Below the pieces are notes generated by a model that saw only the letters and a list, made by a program, of their open reading frames with translations, had not been told where the DNA came from and did not search any database. 42,421 bases of DNA from Dehalococcoidia bacterium (lineage in GTDB: Bacteria; Chloroflexota; Dehalococcoidia; Dehalococcoidales; S120), in the NCBI GenBank assembly GCA_011192075.1, contig DUER01000136.1:7763-50183 (forward strand). The letters run 5' to 3'. Made by a program: the position numbers and the translations under genes. Shown here piece after piece: positions 5,088-39,258 of the stretch; within the stretch, counting starts at the first letter, position 1, and the number at the start of each line of letters is the position of its first letter.

Positions 5088-6164
5088 GTGATAAAGGGAT
5101 ACAGAGTGGCTATTGTTGGTGCTACCGGACTCGTCGGGCAGGAGTTCATCAAGGTTCTAGAGCAACATAACTTTCCTGTGACTTCAATCCGTCTTTTAAC
5201 CTCAGACCGTTCAGCAGGCAAAAAGCTATTTGTTAATCAACAGGAGATTAAGGTTGAAGAGACTGCACCTGAGTCCTTTCAGGAAATTGATATTGCCCTC
5301 TTCTCGGCTGGCACTGAGGTTAGTCGCCACTTCTCACCTATAGCCGCCCAATCAGGAGCTGTGGTCATTGATAATAGCTCTGCCTTTAGAATGGTAGCTG
5401 AAGTGCCCCTAGTAGTCCCTGAGGTCAATCCTGAAGATATTAAACAGCACAGAGGGATTATAGCTAATCCCAATTGCTCTACAATTCAGTTGGTAGTAGC
5501 TCTATACCCACTACATAAGGTTAACCCTATCAAACGCATTATTGTCGATACTTATCAGGCAGTGTCAGGTACCGGTTCTGCAGCAGTAGACGAACTAACA
5601 GTACAAGTCAGACAAGTGCTAGAGGGACAGGCCACTATTCCCCATGTTTACCCTCATCAGATAGCCTTTAATTTGCTACCCGAAATAGATGTTTTCTTGG
5701 ATAACGGCTATACTAAGGAAGAGTGGAAGCTGGTAGAAGAAACAAGGAAGATAATGCATGCTGAGGATATAGCTATTTCGGCTACCTGTGTGCGGGCCCC
5801 GGTATTTACAGGACACAGTGAGGCGATTCATGTTGAATTCTCCCAGCCAATGTCTCCCGAGGAAGCACGGCATATTCTTGCCCAGACACCGGGAGTTAGA
5901 ATATTAGATGACCCGGCTATTAGTCTTTATCCTCAGGCGTGGTCGGCAGTTGGTAGCGATGAGGTTCTTATCGGACGTATTCGTCGTGATACCTCTCACC
6001 CACATGGTTTGGCTATGTGGGTTGTAGCTGACAACTTACGCAAAGGGGCTGCCTTAAATGCAGTCCAGATTGCCAGAGAGATGATTAAAAGAAATTGGTT
6101 ACATCCGAGGGCGAAAAATGAAAAAATTAGGACAATTACTGACAGCTATGGTAACCCCCTTTAA
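5088..6164 (+). CDS. asd: Aspartate-semialdehyde dehydrogenase
   Basis: VAIVGATGLVGQEFIKVLEQHNFP; catalytic NPNCSTIQLVVAL; Asd C-terminus NLRKGAALNAVQIA. Confidence 0.96.
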   Translation: MIKGYRVAIVGATGLVGQEFIKVLEQHNFPVTSIRLLTSDRSAGKKLFVNQQEIKVEETAPESFQEIDIALFSAGTEVSRHFSPIAAQSGAVVIDNSSAFRMVAEVPLVVPEVNPEDIKQHRGIIANPNCSTIQLVVALYPLHKVNPIKRIIVDTYQAVSGTGSAAVDELTVQVRQVLEGQATIPHVYPHQIAFNLLPEIDVFLDNGYTKEEWKLVEETRKIMHAEDIAISATCVRAPVFTGHSEAIHVEFSQPMSPEEARHILAQTPGVRILDDPAISLYPQAWSAVGSDEVLIGRIRRDTSHPHGLAMWVVADNLRKGAALNAVQIAREMIKRNWLHPRAKNEKIRTITDSYGNPL

Positions 6165-7008
6165 TGAAGAAGGGGCAGTTGACTATGAACAGGCTAATAA
6201 GTTGGCCTTAGCCTTACTCAACTCAGGAAGTGAAGGCCTGGTGGTGGTGGGTACAACCGGAGAATCACCTACCCTTATCCGAGAGGAAGAACTACGCCTG
6301 TTCAGCGAGGTGAAATCAGCAGTAGACCAGCGAGGGGCAGTAATAGCTGGCACTGGTAGCAACAGCACGGCTGAGGCTCTAGAAACGACCAAAGAAGCAG
6401 AACGAATCGGGGTCGATGCTTGCCTATTAGTAGTCCCCTACTATAATAAACCTACCCAAGAAGGCTTATACCAACACTTCAAGACTATTGCTCAAAGCAC
6501 TAGCTTACCATGCATCCTTTATAATGTGCCGTCACGCACCGTTACTAACCTATCAGCAGAAACGATTATCAAACTAAGCCATATAGACAATATTATCGGG
6601 GTCAAGGAAGCCAGCGGTAACCTAGACCAAGTTTCTAATATTATCAATGGTGCCAAGGAAGGTTTCCTTGTCTGGAGTGGCAATGATAGTGATACCTTCC
6701 CCATACTAGCCCTGGGGGGCTATGGCATGATTAGTGTCGCCTCGCACTTGGTTGGTAACCAAATCAGACGAATGCTCGATAACGTTATCAGTGGTAAAGT
6801 GGAAGAAGCTGCCAGTACGCACCGTCACCTACTGCCCTTATTTAATGCCCTGTTTATTGTCTCCAACCCTATTCCAATTAAATATGCTCTTAACTATATC
6901 GGCTTTAATGTAGGTAAGCCACGCCTGCCTCTCACTGAGCTTGATGAAAAGTCAGCCGCTTTTATTAAAGACACGCTCAAAAACTATCAAATTGACCTGC
7001 CTCTATAA
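6118..7008 (+). CDS. dapA: 4-hydroxy-tetrahydrodipicolinate synthase
   Basis: TAMVTPFNEEGAVDYEQ, VVGTTGESPTL, YNVPSRTVTNLS, IIGVKEASGNL motifs. Confidence 0.97.
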   Translation: MKKLGQLLTAMVTPFNEEGAVDYEQANKLALALLNSGSEGLVVVGTTGESPTLIREEELRLFSEVKSAVDQRGAVIAGTGSNSTAEALETTKEAERIGVDACLLVVPYYNKPTQEGLYQHFKTIAQSTSLPCILYNVPSRTVTNLSAETIIKLSHIDNIIGVKEASGNLDQVSNIINGAKEGFLVWSGNDSDTFPILALGGYGMISVASHLVGNQIRRMLDNVISGKVEEAASTHRHLLPLFNALFIVSNPIPIKYALNYIGFNVGKPRLPLTELDEKSAAFIKDTLKNYQIDLPL

Positions 7009-7043
7009 TGAGAGGAAATCCCCAGCGCGCTGAAAGTATTACA

Positions 7044-8327
7044 CTAAAAGATAGGCGTCTTATAGATGTTTTCCTCCCGCCCTGGTCCTACGCAGATAAG
7101 GTTTACCGGGCAGGAGGTGAGCTCTTCCAGTCTGGCTATATACTGGCGAGCCTCGATAGGCAATTGTTCATACTGGCGAATGTGTCTGATGGAAGCTTGC
7201 CAGCCGGGTAGCTCCTCATAGATGGGTTGACACCGCTCTAAAGCAGCCACACTAGCTGGGAAATAATCAGTTTTGTCCCCGTCCAGTTCATAACCCACAC
7301 ATATCTTCAATTGAGCAAAACCATCAAGAATGTCAAGGCGGGTGACTACTATCCCGGTGAAGCCATTAATTCGGGTGCTAAACCGAGCCGCCACAGCATC
7401 AAACCAGCCACAGCGACGAGGTCTGCCGGTGGTAGTACCATACTCATGAGCCCGATCCCGAATCAAGTCACCGATTTCATCCTTCAGTTCAGTAGGCATG
7501 GGACCAGCCCCAACTCTGGTGCAGTAAGCCTTGAATACCCCTAGAGCACGATTAATTCTAAATGGGCTTAGACCGGCACCCAAACAGCTTCCTCCCACTA
7601 GCGGTGAAGAGGAGGTAGTGTAAGGATAGGTGCCAAAATCGGGGTCAAGTAAAGCTCCTTGCGCCCCCTCCAATAAAACTAGCTCTTCCCGGCTCAACGC
7701 TTCCTCCAGCATTGTGGCTGTCTCTCGAATATGGGGAGCCAGGCGCTCCCCATACCGGCAATACTTACCATATACTTCGTCCAACGGTAGGGGACTAACC
7801 CCATAAATTTTGGTCAGCATGATGTTCTTGTAATCGAGTATAAAGCGCAGCCGCTCCAGTAGCACTTCTTCATCTAAAAGGTCGCCAGTTCTAATACCTA
7901 ACCTAGCCACTTTATCAGCGAAGGCAGGGCCTATGCCCCTGCGTGTGGTACCTATTGCCTTTCCTGCCCGCGATTCCTCTTCCAAACCATCAAGAAGGAT
8001 GTGATAGGGCATAATCAGATGAGCCCGGTCACTAATAAATAGCCTAGTAGTATCTACGCCGCGCTGATTAAGCTGGTCTAACTCGTCAATTAACACAGCA
8101 GGGTTAATCACCACGCCATTACCAATGATACAAACAGCGTGGGGTGAAAAAATACCAACCGGAACGAGATGTAGTTTGAACTCACCATAGGGGTTAATCA
8201 CCGTATGCCCGGCATTATCACCACCGGAAAAACGGACGATTACCTGTGCTTCTTGAGCAAGTAGGTCAACCACCTTACCTTTCCCCTCGTCCCCCCATTG
8301 ACCTCCAATAATAGCAATAGTTGACAT
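7044..8327 (-). CDS. purA: Adenylosuccinate synthetase
   Basis: GGQWGDEGKGKVVDLLA, RFSGGDNAGHTV, GTTRRGIGPAFADK, GTTTGRPRRCGWFDAV. Confidence 0.97.
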   Translation of the reverse strand: MSTIAIIGGQWGDEGKGKVVDLLAQEAQVIVRFSGGDNAGHTVINPYGEFKLHLVPVGIFSPHAVCIIGNGVVINPAVLIDELDQLNQRGVDTTRLFISDRAHLIMPYHILLDGLEEESRAGKAIGTTRRGIGPAFADKVARLGIRTGDLLDEEVLLERLRFILDYKNIMLTKIYGVSPLPLDEVYGKYCRYGERLAPHIRETATMLEEALSREELVLLEGAQGALLDPDFGTYPYTTSSSPLVGGSCLGAGLSPFRINRALGVFKAYCTRVGAGPMPTELKDEIGDLIRDRAHEYGTTTGRPRRCGWFDAVAARFSTRINGFTGIVVTRLDILDGFAQLKICVGYELDGDKTDYFPASVAALERCQPIYEELPGWQASIRHIRQYEQLPIEARQYIARLEELTSCPVNLICVGPGREENIYKTPIF

Positions 8328-32182: not shown

Positions 32183-33802
32183 TTAAAGTATGCTTGGCTC
32201 TCGGTATTCTCCAAACATATCCCTTAGGGCATCACTTATTTCTCCTACAGTGGCATAAGCCTTAACTGCCTCAATCACCACTGGCATAATATTCTCGTCA
32301 CTGCTAGCTACATTGCGTACTCTATCCAGAACTTCGCTTACCTTTTGATTATCTCTTTCCTGCCTTAATCTCCTTAATCTCTCTATCTGCTTTTGCTCAA
32401 CCTCAATACCAATCTCCAGAGTCTCTAGTAAATGCTCTTCCTTTACCACAAACTTATTAACTCCAATGATGGCCTGTTCGCCAGAATCTACTGCCCTTTG
32501 ATAGTTATAGGCGGAGGTGGCAATTTCTTTTTGAATATATCCCTTCTCTATTGCCTTCAGGGCACCGCCCATTTTATCGATTTCACTAATATATGTCATC
32601 GCCTTATTCTCTATCTGGTCGGTTAACCATTCTACATAGTAAGAGCCTCCCAACGGGTCAACAGTATCTGCAGCACCGCTCTCATCGGCAATGATTTGCT
32701 GGGTTCTTAGGGCAACTTGTACCGCTTGCTCACTGGGTAAAGCCAGTGCCTCGTCAAATGAATTGGTGTGTAAAGATTGGCAACCTCCTAATACAGCAGC
32801 CAGAGCCTGCAAGGTTACTCTTACTATGTTGTTAAGTGGCTGCTGCTCAGTCAGCGTGAAGCCATCTGTTTGAATATGATACCTTAACATCATAGACCTG
32901 GGGTTCTTGGCCCCAAACCTCTCCTTCATTATCTTAGCCCACATACGACGCAGTGCTCTAAACTTGGCCACTTCTTCAAGAAAATTGGTGTAGGCAGCGA
33001 AGAAGAAGGAGAATCGTGGGGCAAAAGAATCAACCTCCATCCCCTTATCTATCATAGCCTGAACATAAGCAATTCCGTTGGCTAAAGTAAAGCCAGCTTC
33101 TTGAGCAGCGGTAGCACCAGCCTCTCGCATATGATAGCCACTGATACTTATCGAGTTCCATTGTGGCATATTCTGGGCGCAGTAAGAGCAAATGTCGGTG
33201 ACCAGACGCATAGATGCGGTTGGTCCAAATATATATGTGTTTCTGGCAATATATTCCTTTAATATATCGTTCTGCACGGTTCCCCTGAGTTTGCTCTTAT
33301 CTGCCCCCTGCTTCTCGGCAGCAGCAATATACATGGCCATTATAATTGGTGCCGTGGCGTTAATTGTCATTGATGTACTCACCTCAGCTAATGGAATACC
33401 GTCCCAAAGCCTCTCCATATCTTGGAGCGAGTCTATAGCGACACCGCATTTACCAATTTCTCCAATAGCAAGAGGATGGTCTGAATCGTATCCTTCCTGC
33501 GTAGGTAGATGAAAAGCAACACTAAACCCGGTTTGCCCCTGCTCGTATAAATACTTGTAGCGCTTATTCGTCTCCTCTACAGTAGCAAAGCCAGCATATT
33601 GGCGCATAGTCCATAATCTACCCCTATAGCCAGTGGGCATTATATGCCTGGTAAATGGATACTCCCCTGGAAGTCCAATCTCATCTTGCCTCAGCCCTTC
33701 CAAATCAGCCGGTGTATATACCCGATTAACCACAGTTCCATCAACAGTAGTCGTGAACGCCTTCTTTCTCTCGACCATCTCTTCAGTTTTGTTTTCGGGC
33801 AT
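32183..33802 (-). CDS. Methylmalonyl-CoA mutase, catalytic subunit
   Basis: [100 protein letters not shown]. Confidence 0.95.
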
Positions 33803-33841
33803 CTTGCTCTCCTCTAGCTTTCACGCCAATTATCGTACTTT

Positions 33842-33870
33842 ATTCTACCGCCCGATAGGGGTTTTGTCAA
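33842..33870 (-). promoter_or_regulatory. Sigma70-like promoter for the mutase/succinate/fumarate operon
   Basis: On the minus strand TTGACA - 17 nt - TAGAAT, about 40 nt upstream of the mutase start. Confidence 0.7.
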
Positions 33871-33911
33871 AGAATTTGTATCTAGCTTTAGTCTCGCTGT
33901 GGCCTCTATGG

Positions 33912-33917
33912 TATAAT
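33912..33917 (+). promoter_or_regulatory. Candidate -10 box for the corrinoid methyltransferase operon
   Basis: Perfect TATAAT about 45 nt upstream of the ATG at 33962; -35 is weak. Confidence 0.35.
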
Positions 33918-33961
33918 GACCCATAACACTATAGAAGCTATTATAAGGAGAAACTAAATTA

Positions 33962-34594
33962 ATGGCTGAGGACTTAGTTAAGACGATAGCAGATTTGCAT
34001 GAAGAAGAGGCTTTGAGGATAGTGGAGGAAAGACTGCGAGCTGGTGAAGATGCCTTCAAGATCCTAGAGGACAGCCGCAATGCTATGGAAATTGTGGGCA
34101 AGCGTTTTGAGAATAGAGAGTATTTCATTCCAGATCTCGTATATTCTGGAGAGATTTTGCAGGAGATAGCGGAAATAGTTAAGCCAAAGTTAACAGGGGC
34201 TAACGAGTTTGAGCGTCTGGATAAGGTTATCATAGGTACCGTAGCCGGAGATATACATGATATTGGCAAAAACATTGTAACTTTTATGCTGGATATCAAT
34301 GGTTTTGAAGTTTATGACCTTGGTGTGGATGTACCGGCACAGAAGTTTATTGAGAAAGCAGAGGAAACTCAAGCCAGGATAATAGGGTTAAGTGGACTGC
34401 TGACTCTAGCCTTTGAATCCATGAAGGAAACTATAGAAGTAATAAGGGGCACTGGTCTGAGGGATAAGGTGAAAATCATGATTGGCGGTGGTCAAATTAA
34501 CGATGAGGTGAGGAAGTATACCGGGGCTGATGCCTTTGGAACAGACGCAATGAGCGCAGTATTGCTAGTTAAAGACTGGGCAGGAGAGAAATGA
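33962..34594 (+). CDS. Corrinoid (B12-binding) methyl-carrier protein, MtbC/MtaC-like
   Basis: Helical cap domain plus IIGTVAGDIHDIGKNIVTFMLDINGFEVYDLGVDVPAQKFIEKA with the DxHxxG motif. Confidence 0.93.
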   Translation: MAEDLVKTIADLHEEEALRIVEERLRAGEDAFKILEDSRNAMEIVGKRFENREYFIPDLVYSGEILQEIAEIVKPKLTGANEFERLDKVIIGTVAGDIHDIGKNIVTFMLDINGFEVYDLGVDVPAQKFIEKAEETQARIIGLSGLLTLAFESMKETIEVIRGTGLRDKVKIMIGGGQINDEVRKYTGADAFGTDAMSAVLLVKDWAGEK

Positions 34595-35850
34595 TAGAGG
34601 AGAAAACACCTGAAGAGCTTTTACAGGAAAGAACCAAGAGGGTTGAAGATGCTGTCCAATTGAAAGTGCCAGACAGGGTTCCAGTAGCACCGAATTTTGG
34701 TTTTTTCTACGCCAAGTATGCTGGGATAACCCCTGAAGAAGCCCACTACGATTATGATAAATGGGCGATGGCAGTCAAAAAGACGGTTCTAGATTTCCAG
34801 CCAGATATGTTTGTAAGCCCGCGGATGATTCTACTTGCTCCAGGCCCTGTGCTTGATATGGTTGACTTTAAGCAAATTAAATGGCCCGGCCACGGAGTTT
34901 CCTCTAATCATTCGTTTCAGTTCGTTGAAGAGGAATACATGAAGGCAGAGGAATACGATGCCTTCATTGAAGACCCCTCCGATTATATAATAAGAACCTA
35001 TTTACCGCGTATATATGGAGTCGCCGAGCCCTTTAAAATGCTGCCTCCTCTCAGCTCAATGATGGTGGGATATGCCGCCGTGCATTTAACCGCCGCGCTT
35101 GCAAGACCGGAAGTTACTAATGCTATTGAGACCCTTTCCAAAGCGGGGGCTGAATCCCTGAGATGGCGCTCCATAATGGATTCTATCCACGAAGAGCTTG
35201 GCGGTATGGGTTTTCCCTCATGCGCTCAAGCAATTGCAGAAGCACCCTACGATGTGATTGGAGATTTCCTCAGGGGGACACGCGGGGTAATGCTGGATAT
35301 GTACCGAAGACCTGATAAACTCATTGAAGCTACCGAAAGAGTATTACCAATGCAACTCCAGGCTGCAGTGTTTATCGCCAAAAGGAGTGGAAATCCCAGA
35401 GTATTTATTCCACTCCATAAGGGCGCTGACGGCTTCATGTCCCTGGAGCAGTTTAAAACCTTCTATTGGCCCACTTTACATAAACTCATCACAGGGCTGA
35501 TTGATGAAGGGCTTACCCCCTGGCTATTTATTGAAGCGGATTACACGTCACGCCTGGAGACCATAAGGGATATACCTAAGGGAAAGGCTATATATCACTT
35601 TGAGCTTACGGACATCTTCAAAGCAAAGGAGGTCCTGGGCGACGTGGCATGTATCAGAGGTGGTGTGCCAAGCTCCCTGTTGTGTACCGGTGTACCTCAA
35701 GAAGTCAAGGACTGCTGCAAAAAACTCATTGATGTTGTTGGTAGGGGAGGGGGTTTTATCATGGATGCCGGATCAGTTATTGATGAGGCGAAACCGGAAA
35801 ATATAAGGGTAATGGTAGACTTCACCAAAGAATATGGTGTATACGGGTGA
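34591..35850 (+). CDS. Uroporphyrinogen decarboxylase-family (MtaA/CmuA-like) methyltransferase
   Basis: UroD-type fold motifs (GADGFMSLEQFKTFYWPTLHKLI; GGGFIMDAGSVIDEAKPENIRVMVDFTKEYGVY); 4-nt ATGA overlap with the corrinoid-protein gene. Confidence 0.82.
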   Translation: MIEEKTPEELLQERTKRVEDAVQLKVPDRVPVAPNFGFFYAKYAGITPEEAHYDYDKWAMAVKKTVLDFQPDMFVSPRMILLAPGPVLDMVDFKQIKWPGHGVSSNHSFQFVEEEYMKAEEYDAFIEDPSDYIIRTYLPRIYGVAEPFKMLPPLSSMMVGYAAVHLTAALARPEVTNAIETLSKAGAESLRWRSIMDSIHEELGGMGFPSCAQAIAEAPYDVIGDFLRGTRGVMLDMYRRPDKLIEATERVLPMQLQAAVFIAKRSGNPRVFIPLHKGADGFMSLEQFKTFYWPTLHKLITGLIDEGLTPWLFIEADYTSRLETIRDIPKGKAIYHFELTDIFKAKEVLGDVACIRGGVPSSLLCTGVPQEVKDCCKKLIDVVGRGGGFIMDAGSVIDEAKPENIRVMVDFTKEYGVYG

Positions 35851-35869
35851 GAAGTAAATAGGGAGTATT

Positions 35870-37717
35870 ATGCTTTATAAGATTGATTTCGAACCGCTGG
35901 GTCGGCGAGGACACTGCCCGGACGATAAGTCACTTTTGGATTGTGCACGCCAACTCGGTATAGGTATTCTTAGCGTATGCGGAGGCCAGGGAAAGTGCCA
36001 TTCCTGCAAGGTACAGGTTTTAACAGGAACCGTCTCAGAACCAACCTCTAGTGAGCAGGATGCATTTTCCTCTCAGGAATTGGAGGATGGCTACCGTTTA
36101 GCCTGCCAGACCTATCCACTCAGTGATTGCAAATTGCGTGTGCCATCCGAGTCAATGACTACCCTGCAACGAACTCAAGTGGAGGGGGTTGAGGTTGCCG
36201 TTCGTCCAAAGCCAACCGTTCATGCCTACCATGTCCAACTACCAACTCCATCCTTATCAGACCTGCGGGGCGATGCCGAACGTATGCTTGAGACACTACA
36301 CCACCAGCACCAGATACGCTGCAGCCATATTGACATTGATGTCTTGCGGGACATCTCACCGCAGCTGCGGTCATGGAAGTGGCAGGCTCAGGCTTCGGTT
36401 CGTAATAACGAAGTAGTGGCCCTTGGTCCCTGGCCCAGCCGCCAACTGGGGCTAGCCGTAGACTTAGGCACTACCAAAATTGCTAGCTATCTGGTTGATT
36501 TGAGTAATGGTCAGACTTTAGCTGCTAAAGCGGTTATGAATCCACAGATAAGCTATGGGGAAGATGTCATCAACCGTATCTATCAAGTCGTAAAGTCACC
36601 GGCTGACGGCACACGGCTACAGCAGCTAGCTGTGGAGGCAGTTAACCGGCTGATTGTTGAGCTATGTGAGACGGCTGATGCTGAAGCAGAGAAAATCGTC
36701 GAGGCGGTGATTGTGGGCAACACTGCCATGCACCATTTATTGCTACGTTTACCGGTGAATCAGCTAGCTTACTCTCCCTTCGTGCTGGCGGTTCGAGATG
36801 CCATGAATATCAAGTCTAGGGATATAGGCTTACATATTGCACCTGGAGCCTATGTACACCTGTTGCCCAACATTGCCGGCTTTGTCGGCGCCGACCACGT
36901 GGCGATGTTACTGGCTATTGAGGCTACGCAGGCTAAGGGAGTGGTGATAGCACTAGACATCGGTACCAATACCGAGGTCTCTTTACTAGATGATGATAAG
37001 ATAACCAGTGTCTCCTGTGCCTCTGGTCCTGCCTTTGAAGGAGGCCATATCAAGGATGGAATGCGGGCTGCCAGTGGCGCCATAGAACGATTGCGGGTGA
37101 CAGATAATCTCATTCAGTACCAGACCATTGATGGGATGCCCCCGATTGGGCTTTGCGGTTCAGGTGTGCTAGATGCCATGGCCCAACTATATCTGGTCGG
37201 AGTGCTAGATAAAGGTGGCAGGATGACGCAGAACCACCCCAGAGTGCGTGTGCGTAAAAAGCAACGAGAGTTCATCCTGGTCAGTGAGAAGGAACAAGAG
37301 GGGCGTCCGGCAATTACTATCACTCAACAGGATATACGAGAATTACAACTGGCTAAGGGGGCTATACGCACCGGTATCCAGGTACTCTTGGAAACAACGG
37401 GGCATTCTGAGGAAGAAATCGATCAGGTGGTCATCGCTGGAGCCTTTGGCACATACATCGATGTAGCCAGCGCAGTGACTATCGGTATGTTACCATCACT
37501 GCCTCTGACTCGCTTCCGGCAAGTAGGAAACGCTGCTGGCATGGGAGCCAAGCTGGCTTTAATCTCCCGTAGTAAGCGGACCGAGGCTCAGGCTATAGCT
37601 TCTCGAGTTCACTATATCGAATTAGCCACTGCTGCTAATTTCAATCCATCCTTTGTTCAAGCAAGTTATTTAGGACGGTATAGAATAACACACGGTAAGA
37701 GAAAGGAGATTGATTAA
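35870..37717 (+). CDS. Corrinoid reductive-activation ATPase (RACE/RamA-like, ASKHA domain with N-terminal 2Fe-2S)
   Basis: CGGQGKCHSCKVQVLTG 2Fe-2S motif; LGLAVDLGTTKIASYLVDLSNG; LDIGTNTEVSLLDDDKITSVSCASGPAFEGGHIKDGMRAASGAIE. Confidence 0.92.
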   Translation: MLYKIDFEPLGRRGHCPDDKSLLDCARQLGIGILSVCGGQGKCHSCKVQVLTGTVSEPTSSEQDAFSSQELEDGYRLACQTYPLSDCKLRVPSESMTTLQRTQVEGVEVAVRPKPTVHAYHVQLPTPSLSDLRGDAERMLETLHHQHQIRCSHIDIDVLRDISPQLRSWKWQAQASVRNNEVVALGPWPSRQLGLAVDLGTTKIASYLVDLSNGQTLAAKAVMNPQISYGEDVINRIYQVVKSPADGTRLQQLAVEAVNRLIVELCETADAEAEKIVEAVIVGNTAMHHLLLRLPVNQLAYSPFVLAVRDAMNIKSRDIGLHIAPGAYVHLLPNIAGFVGADHVAMLLAIEATQAKGVVIALDIGTNTEVSLLDDDKITSVSCASGPAFEGGHIKDGMRAASGAIERLRVTDNLIQYQTIDGMPPIGLCGSGVLDAMAQLYLVGVLDKGGRMTQNHPRVRVRKKQREFILVSEKEQEGRPAITITQQDIRELQLAKGAIRTGIQVLLETTGHSEEEIDQVVIAGAFGTYIDVASAVTIGMLPSLPLTRFRQVGNAAGMGAKLALISRSKRTEAQAIASRVHYIELATAANFNPSFVQASYLGRYRITHGKRKEID

Positions 37718-38571
37718 TGAGAACCAAGCTATCAAGTGCTACCAAGGAAGTAATTATTGGCGATGGACTGCCAACAGTGCTTATCGGTGAACGCATTAAT
37801 CCTACAGGTAAGAAGGAAATGGCAGAGACATTGAAGGTAGGTAATTTAGAGATTATCTGTAAGGTGGCTCTGGCTCAGGTGCAGGCTGGAGCGGATATTC
37901 TTGATGTCAACATTAATACATTCGGCGTAGATGAGGTTACCATGCTGCCCCAAGCCGTACAGGCAGTAATGGAGACGGTAGATGTGCCTCTATGCCTTGA
38001 CTGTACTAATCCCAAAGCCTTAGAAGCAGCGTTGAAGGTCTATAAGGGTAAGCCACTCATCAACTCAGTCAGCGGTGAAGAGCAATCCCTGGCTAAGATT
38101 TTACCTTTAGTCAGAGAATATGGGACAGCAGTCATTGGTCTGACACAAGACAGCGACGGCATACCGGGCGATTCGGAGCGGCGGGTAGCTATCGCTCAGA
38201 AGATTGTAGAACGAGCCGAGGCGGCAGGTATCCCTCGTGAGGACGTCATCATTGATTGCCTCTCCCTTGCCGTGGGAGCCGATACCAGAGCGGGGTTGGT
38301 AACTATTGATAGCATCCAGAGAATCAAAGCCGAACTGGGAGTGAACATGACACTGGGAGCCAGCAATATCTCCTTTGGTCTCCCTGACCGCAATTTGCTC
38401 AACAGCGCTTTCCTGGCTATCATCATTGCCGCAGGAGTTACTTGTCCTATTGTAGATACGGCTAAGGTACGCCCGATTGTTCTAGCCGCTGACTTAGTGT
38501 TGGGTCATGATAAGCGTGGGAGGCGTTACACTGAAGCCTACAGGCAACGCCAGGATGCTGGAAGCATATAA
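37717..38571 (+). CDS. Methyltetrahydrofolate:corrinoid methyltransferase (pterin-binding, AcsE/MtgA-like)
   Basis: LIGERINPTGKKEMAETL; QAGADILDVNINTFGVDE; LINSVSGEEQSLAKILPLVREYGTAVIGLT; TLGASNISFGLPDRNLLNSAFL. Confidence 0.93.
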   Translation: MRTKLSSATKEVIIGDGLPTVLIGERINPTGKKEMAETLKVGNLEIICKVALAQVQAGADILDVNINTFGVDEVTMLPQAVQAVMETVDVPLCLDCTNPKALEAALKVYKGKPLINSVSGEEQSLAKILPLVREYGTAVIGLTQDSDGIPGDSERRVAIAQKIVERAEAAGIPREDVIIDCLSLAVGADTRAGLVTIDSIQRIKAELGVNMTLGASNISFGLPDRNLLNSAFLAIIIAAGVTCPIVDTAKVRPIVLAADLVLGHDKRGRRYTEAYRQRQDAGSI

Positions 38572-38610: not shown

Positions 38611-39258
38611 TTACGGAAACCAATTGGGCTTCTTCGGAGTAAGAATGAAATCATAGTAGGTCACACTCATACCAGGCGCATTCCATTTGCCGCGAGGTAG
38701 AGCCGACTCATTAAATTCATTCACCTCAGAGATGCCAACATTTATATGGCCACCAAAGTAACTATTCACGTACCTCGGCTTTCGGTCCCGTGTTCCAAAA
38801 GGTCTTGCCCCAAAATTGTATAGCCCCTCACTTTGCACCGTATGTCTTGCCGCTGGGCCACCATCTATAAGCTCTTTGTTAAATTTTATCCTTGCCCTTT
38901 TTACTGCGATTACATCGCCCATCTGACTCCAGCATTTTCTGAAAATATTTTCCAAAGCTTCCGCTTGCTGTACATTTGCCTTGTCATCGATGAAAATAAT
39001 ACACTTCCAAGGAGACCGTTCTGGTTGGGGGAATGGCGAGGGCGAGTTAAAGGCGTATAGTACTACCAAACCACCCAGGTCTATATTGCCATAGTATCCC
39101 TGCCTTACATTGAACGTCCATACACCCTCGCATTCGCTTCGACCTTGATGAAACTGCGCCTGAAGCGGGGAGCCCCAAACAGCTGGACACACTGGCGGTG
39201 AGGTACAGCCTTCTACACAGTCTCCGCTTACCATCCACTCAAATTTTTCTTCTGCCAT
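38611..39258 (-). CDS. DUF1326-like protein
   Basis: FEWMVSGDCVEGCTSPPVCPAVWGSPLQ... resembles the WxxxGDYxExCxCxxxCPC-type start of DUF1326 proteins; SD AGAGGG. Confidence 0.55.
   Translation of the reverse strand: MAEEKFEWMVSGDCVEGCTSPPVCPAVWGSPLQAQFHQGRSECEGVWTFNVRQGYYGNIDLGGLVVLYAFNSPSPFPQPERSPWKCIIFIDDKANVQQAEALENIFRKCWSQMGDVIAVKRARIKFNKELIDGGPAARHTVQSEGLYNFGARPFGTRDRKPRYVNSYFGGHINVGISEVNEFNESALPRGKWNAPGMSVTYYDFILTPKKPNWFP

Follow-up and report, generated by a model that had tools for sequence, protein, structure and literature searches.

The Mtv system of Moorella thermoacetica (MtvB/MtvC/MtvA), which acts on vanillate, combines a UroD-family substrate:corrinoid methyltransferase (MT1) with a separate corrinoid protein (CP) and a methyl-tetrahydrofolate (THF) methyltransferase (MT2), while its activator is encoded elsewhere in the genome (PMC13391211). 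In the Cdm chloromethane system of Acetobacterium dehalogenans, MT1 (CdmB, PDB 9rui), CP and MT2 are encoded together as cdmBCA without an activator, and CdmB does not cleave methoxy-aromatics, so a close relative of O-demethylases can lose ether activity (PMC13222342). The Mto methoxydotrophic system of Methermicoccus and Archaeoglobus has a single cluster for CP, a UroD-type MT1, activator and MT2 and is described with linked transporters and a proposed transfer to tetrahydromethanopterin (PMC8630106, PMC8359953). The window analyzed here, a 42,421-nucleotide stretch of DNA from a Dehalococcoidia bacterium, encodes an operon that shares MT1, CP and MT2 with all of these systems and, like Mto but unlike Mtv and Cdm, includes the activator; in contrast to Mto, it carries no transporter of its own, nor a regulator. 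We interpret the operon as a corrinoid O-demethylase feeding methyl-THF, with methoxylated aromatics as the likeliest donor, and assign this statement as a whole a probability of roughly 0.58. Our main additions are the placement of its MT1 beside MtvB, the residue differences from CdmB and the occurrence of this branch in a culturable organism, where it can be tested.

The operon consists of four ORFs on the + strand at positions 33962-38571 in the order CP, UroD-family MT1, activator and MT2 (Table 1). The initial annotation had described four tightly packed genes in an MT-I/CP/AE/MT-II layout; ORF coordinates bear out the packing, with an ATGA overlap between the CP and UroD genes, a TAATG overlap between the activator and MT2 genes and a gap of 19 nt between the UroD and activator genes, and Pfam, NCBIfam and motif analyses agree with the layout for all four proteins. 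Because the operon is flanked by a divergent methylmalonyl-CoA mutase operon beginning at 33802 and a convergent DUF1326 gene with its end at 38611, no further neighbor is obviously part of it. A scan for sigma-70 promoters and terminators gave no signal above chance, including in the divergent intergenic region. The same CP-UroD-activator-MT2 order is found in Chloroflexi RBG_13_51_36 (L061). The architecture of the operon is ordinary and its machinery is of a known kind.

Table 1. Features of the corrinoid methyltransferase operon, with positions counted from the first letter of the window.
Feature	Position	Strand	Length	Basis
Corrinoid (B12-binding) protein CP, methyl carrier	33962..34594	+	210 aa	Pfam, DIHDIG, 4jgi
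UroD-family substrate:corrinoid methyltransferase MT1, substrate-choosing part	34591..35850	+	419 aa	Pfam URO-D, CdmB/MtvB likeness, tree, cavity residues, AlphaFold2 model
ATP-dependent corrinoid activator, RACo/AE type, N-terminal 2Fe-2S domain	35870..37717	+	615 aa	Pfam, 3zyy, motifs
Methyl-corrinoid:tetrahydrofolate methyltransferase MT2	37717..38571	+	284 aa	PRK07535, 4o0q/4o1e/4o1f, MeTr pterin residues
Divergent intergenic region, expected place of operon promoter	33803..33961	.		ORF coordinates

The hallmarks of an acetogen-type corrinoid methyltransferase system are all present: a separate CP, a RACo/AE activator, a methyl-THF-binding MT2 and THF/Wood-Ljungdahl genes in the host. The CP comprises the helical and Rossmann B12 domains (Pfam B12-binding_2 and B12-binding) with an intact DxHxxG motif (DIHDIG) at residue 97, and its best solved relative is 4jgi, a cobalamin protein from Desulfitobacterium hafniense that belongs to a putative O-demethylase (PMC3727330). 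The activator matches Pfam Fer2, RACo_linker, Raco_middle and RACo_C_ter, retains an intact CX5CX2C motif at residue 37 and intact ASKHA DLGTT/DIGTN motifs and aligns with RACo 3zyy at an E-value of 3e-110. MT2 matches Pfam Pterin_bind and scores 276 bits against PRK07535 (cut-off 259). Its best solved relatives are 4o0q, 4o1e and 4o1f, with an E-value of 1e-44 to MtgA-type 4o1e/4o1f, and its residues D95, N116, D180 and N217 are the equivalents of D75, N96, D160 and N199, the four pterin-binding residues of Moorella MeTr. The window activator and MT2 thus resemble RACo 3zyy and MtgA-type 4o1e/4o1f in sequence, although their partners differ.

MT1 belongs to the UroD family (Pfam URO-D, 56.5 bits, cut-off 23.9) and is distinct from HemE and from coenzyme M-type methyltransferases. 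Its closest solved relative is CdmB (E = 6e-41), and a profile of the MT1 family finds CdmB at 7e-78, HemE at 5e-8 and MtaA at 1.5e-4. We therefore reject a HemE identity on the basis of these profile values and of residues; an MtaA, MtbA or CmuA identity is likewise rejected, given a TIGR01463 score of 23 bits (cut-off 235), together with residues. At the alignment position of MT1 residue Glu315, several outgroup rows of MtaA/HemE-like proteins (L149, L136, L150, L161) carry Cys. With Glu315 in place of the thiol-zinc Cys of the H-x-C motif, a coenzyme M-type thiol-zinc site is not expected in MT1. An AlphaFold2 model of the protein has a pLDDT of 96, and a fold search with it recovers only the general UroD/MetE fold, CdmB being absent among the matches listed, so the search does not choose between substrates. 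Full-length identity is 35-36% to both Moorella MtvB paralogues, which are 79% identical to each other, and identity to CdmB is 26%.

MT1 homologues are widespread, and the window protein falls within a well-supported clade separate from MtvB and CdmB. A scan of named genomes identified homologues with 32-65% identity at 66 loci in Dehalococcoidia, Desulfobacterales and other 'Deltaproteobacteria', Lokiarchaeota, Anaerolineae, Rhodospirillaceae, Acidobacteriota, Actinomycetota and Bacillota, many of them from Dehalococcoidales. In a maximum-likelihood tree with MtvB as the characterized O-demethylase reference, window MT1 lies within a 28-row clade (support 99/97) apart from the clade of MtvB and CdmB, and it is consequently not classed as an MtvB orthologue. 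Members of the window clade come from Dehalococcoidia, Desulfobacterales, Lokiarchaeota, Rhodospirillaceae and Bacillota. The best tree places CdmB on the MtvB side; AU tests returned p values of 0.29 and 0.19, the latter for CdmB grouped with the window clade. Our literature search found no experimentally tested member of the window clade. Two loci in Dehalococcoidia-type genomes show at least 5 tandem UroD-family ORFs, some seemingly broken, behind a single CP (L070:5824-12955 and L072:5887-12775).

The clade extends to the culturable acetogen M. thermoacetica, whose genome we recognized from complete (100%) identity to the solved M. thermoacetica MeTr and whose two mtv clusters we then inspected. 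A third UroD protein in this organism, located within the second mtv cluster, is 50% identical to window MT1, groups in the same clade and shares every cavity residue with it. By gene order it is probably Mothe_c12980, named 'mtaB2' in PMC13391211, which reports no function for it; the other M. thermoacetica gene names, taken from the same paper, are likewise probable assignments by order. Unlike window MT1, it has an MFS transporter on one side and a group of DUF1638, GntR and CP genes on the other. The substrate of the branch could be settled in M. thermoacetica and the result then extended to uncultured bacteria and Asgard archaea.

The putative substrate cavity of MT1 closely matches that of MtvB and differs from that of CdmB. 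Across 96 full-length MT1 relatives, Q110, Y122, D236, H276, E315, R321, D341 and C354 are near-invariant. MtvB is identical to window MT1 at Q110, E113, E115, M117, Y122, D236, H276, F291-Y292-W293, E315, D341, K346 and C354, the main exception being R321, which is Tyr in MtvB. CdmB departs from the window family at nine conserved positions (Q110, E113, E115, M117, H276, Y292, E315, R321 and D341). This pattern favors an ether-type donor over a haloalkane, as far as a donor can be predicted from residues.

The gene neighborhoods of several homologues point to methoxylated aromatics. The second mtv cluster of M. thermoacetica reads MT2, MtvB, CP, MFS transporter, window-clade homologue, DUF1638 gene, GntR and CP, and in Desulfofundulus australicus a homologue, CP and an MFS transporter are followed by a second UroD protein, which groups on the MtvB side of the tree, and then by MT2, an unnamed protein and GntR. 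At L084, from a Rhodospirillaceae genome, CP and two MT1 homologues stand directly after a VanA_C Rieske gene and metF; an unnamed gene, the activator and MT2 come next. Other neighborhoods are more varied: several Dehalococcoidia homologues adjoin Liv-type importers, one adjoins a TRAP transporter and an amidohydrolase (L046) and others adjoin an NCS1 nucleobase-type permease (L048, L073, L099). At one locus, a reductive-dehalogenase-like gene (L047:4796-5974; TIGR02486, 235 bits, cut-off 160) lies 24 nt upstream of a 57%-identical MT1 homologue (6001-7254), both behind an XDH-type operon; no other examined locus has such a gene beside MT1. Given these mixed transporters and neighbors, the clade probably covers more than one donor. 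Among the 39 homologue loci whose flanking sequence is long enough, CP is adjacent in 26, MT2 in 15, the activator in seven and all three in five. For one locus (L057) we considered a glycolate/mandelate pathway and dropped the idea, since none of the neighboring TPP and FMN enzymes scored above the cut-off of a specific family. At 11 loci, MT1 or the activator adjoins a roughly 240-aa protein that has no Pfam match (L062:7339-8067 and homologues); on visual inspection this protein looks similar to methionine-synthase activation-type proteins, and it is absent from the window operon.

The activator and MT2 recur with different partners. Close MT2 orthologues (56-75% identity) are present in 41 of the 156 genomes of the order, and among the 20 loci whose gene context we inspected, the activator/MT2 pair accompanies a window-family MT1 (L188, L201, L205), an MttB-type MT1 (L193, L203) or a distant UroD protein (L191); at other loci it adjoins formate-THF ligase (L190) or a gene of roughly 535 aa that carries no label (L192, L198, L204). 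Activator and MT2 appear to be a common outlet toward THF, with the CP/MT1 pair as the variable part, and their reuse with different MT1 types supports a catabolic direction. Tentatively, the window clade may represent a widespread class of corrinoid MT1 enzymes, still to be tested, with its own methyl donor or donors in sediment Dehalococcoidia, Asgard archaea, marine Rhodospirillaceae and Moorella, coupled in the window order to an activator/MT2 pair that would act as an interchangeable exit module for MttB-type enzymes as well.

The host genome provides an outlet for the methyl-THF made by MT2. The assembly (1.7 Mb, 187 contigs, 84% complete, estimated contamination 1.6%) contains the Wood-Ljungdahl genes acsB (1079 bits, cut-off 800), acsC, an acsE-like gene, metF, cdhA, cdhC and formate-THF ligase. 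Neither of the two findings that the initial annotation had named as refuting its reading, clustering of the UroD protein with true HemE and absence of THF/Wood-Ljungdahl genes, is borne out. The assembly also contains eight UbiD-family stretches and a class I benzoyl-CoA-reductase-like cluster of two HGD-D subunits and two ASKHA ATPases below NCBIfam cut-offs (L219; G000:C159:5448-9759), which would fit an organism handling aromatic acids. The same assembly encodes a bacterial-type acsB (708 aa; L011, G000:C124) and an archaeal-type cdhA/cdhC/CdhD-family cluster (L012, G000:C26), a co-occurrence that reflects either a true double set or contamination. Within the order, one genome has the same DNA as a MAG listed at NCBI under Dehalococcoidia and another the same DNA as a MAG listed under Deltaproteobacteria, the latter label being probably wrong. 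The host has three more corrinoid systems (L013, L014, L015; G000:C35, C72, C114), made up of two pairs of CP and UroD genes together with two MttB-type genes that have a CP gene behind them.

Uncultured Dehalococcoidia are common in sediments and their diet is largely guessed. A complete methyl-harvesting operon together with the Wood-Ljungdahl pathway represents a concrete, testable energy source for these bacteria. The protein families, motifs, operon organization and host methyl-THF pathway form the observed basis for reading the locus as an O-demethylase. Methyl transfer between a donor and THF via CP is nearly certain; from the combined evidence we infer a methoxy compound as donor and a catabolic direction. 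In the proposed mechanism, the activator would use ATP and low-potential electrons to reduce CP to Co(I), and MT1 would present an O-methyl donor, likeliest a methoxylated aromatic and perhaps a methoxybenzoate-like acid. Attack of Co(I) on the methyl carbon would yield CH3-Co(III) and release the phenol, with H276 and E315 possibly assisting as acid or metal ligands. MT2 would then move the methyl group from CH3-Co(III) to THF, and the resulting methyl-THF would enter the Wood-Ljungdahl pathway.

The UroD-family protein is the only candidate for a substrate-specific enzyme, as the initial annotation had held; with MT1 outside the clade of MtvB and CdmB, its methyl donor, then left undefined, is formally a prediction. 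Aryl methyl ethers, named at that stage as one possibility, gain support from the MtvB-like cavity residues and gene neighborhoods, short of proof. The same machinery could act on a donor other than an aryl methyl ether, such as an aliphatic methoxy acid, an N-methyl heterocycle or a methylated sulfide. The separation of the MT1 clade from MtvB, the NCS1 permeases or XDH-type operon beside some branches and the conserved Arg321, which hints at another recognition group, are consistent with such a donor. Nevertheless, we regard it as rather unlikely, because the remaining conserved cavity pattern is that of MtvB, Glu315 in place of the thiol-zinc Cys argues against thiol chemistry and the nearest characterized O-demethylase neighbors suggest methoxy compounds.

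A Cdm-type system dehalogenating a haloalkane such as chloromethane appears improbable. CdmB is the best solved relative of MT1, the AU test leaves room for grouping it with the window clade and the close homologue downstream of the reductive-dehalogenase-like gene would suit such a role; however, identity to CdmB is low, CdmB differs at the family-conserved positions listed above, including the His276 and Glu315 equivalents, and the Liv-type, MFS and TRAP importers beside many homologues would be needless for a gas. Very improbable is a biosynthetic direction, in which methyl-THF would pass via MT2 and CP to an acceptor, as in methionine synthesis from split parts, with the UroD protein as final transferase. 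Both MT2 and CP resemble MetH domains (TIGR02082, 148 and 116 bits, respectively), and the host genome, at 84% completeness, yielded no MetE catalytic domain. Against this, Glu315 replaces the thiol-zinc Cys in the UroD protein, activator/MT2 pairs occur with MttB-type MT1s and once by formate-THF ligase, as expected for methyl entry, and the MT1 family includes a neighbor of MtvB. The O-demethylase reading thus remains our preferred one.

The contig that holds the window also carries, upstream of it, a tandem run of four FAD_binding_4 oxidase-like ORFs (L016, G000:C42:8-5892), and similar oxidases occur near MT1 homologues at four other loci (L052, L056, L065, L070).
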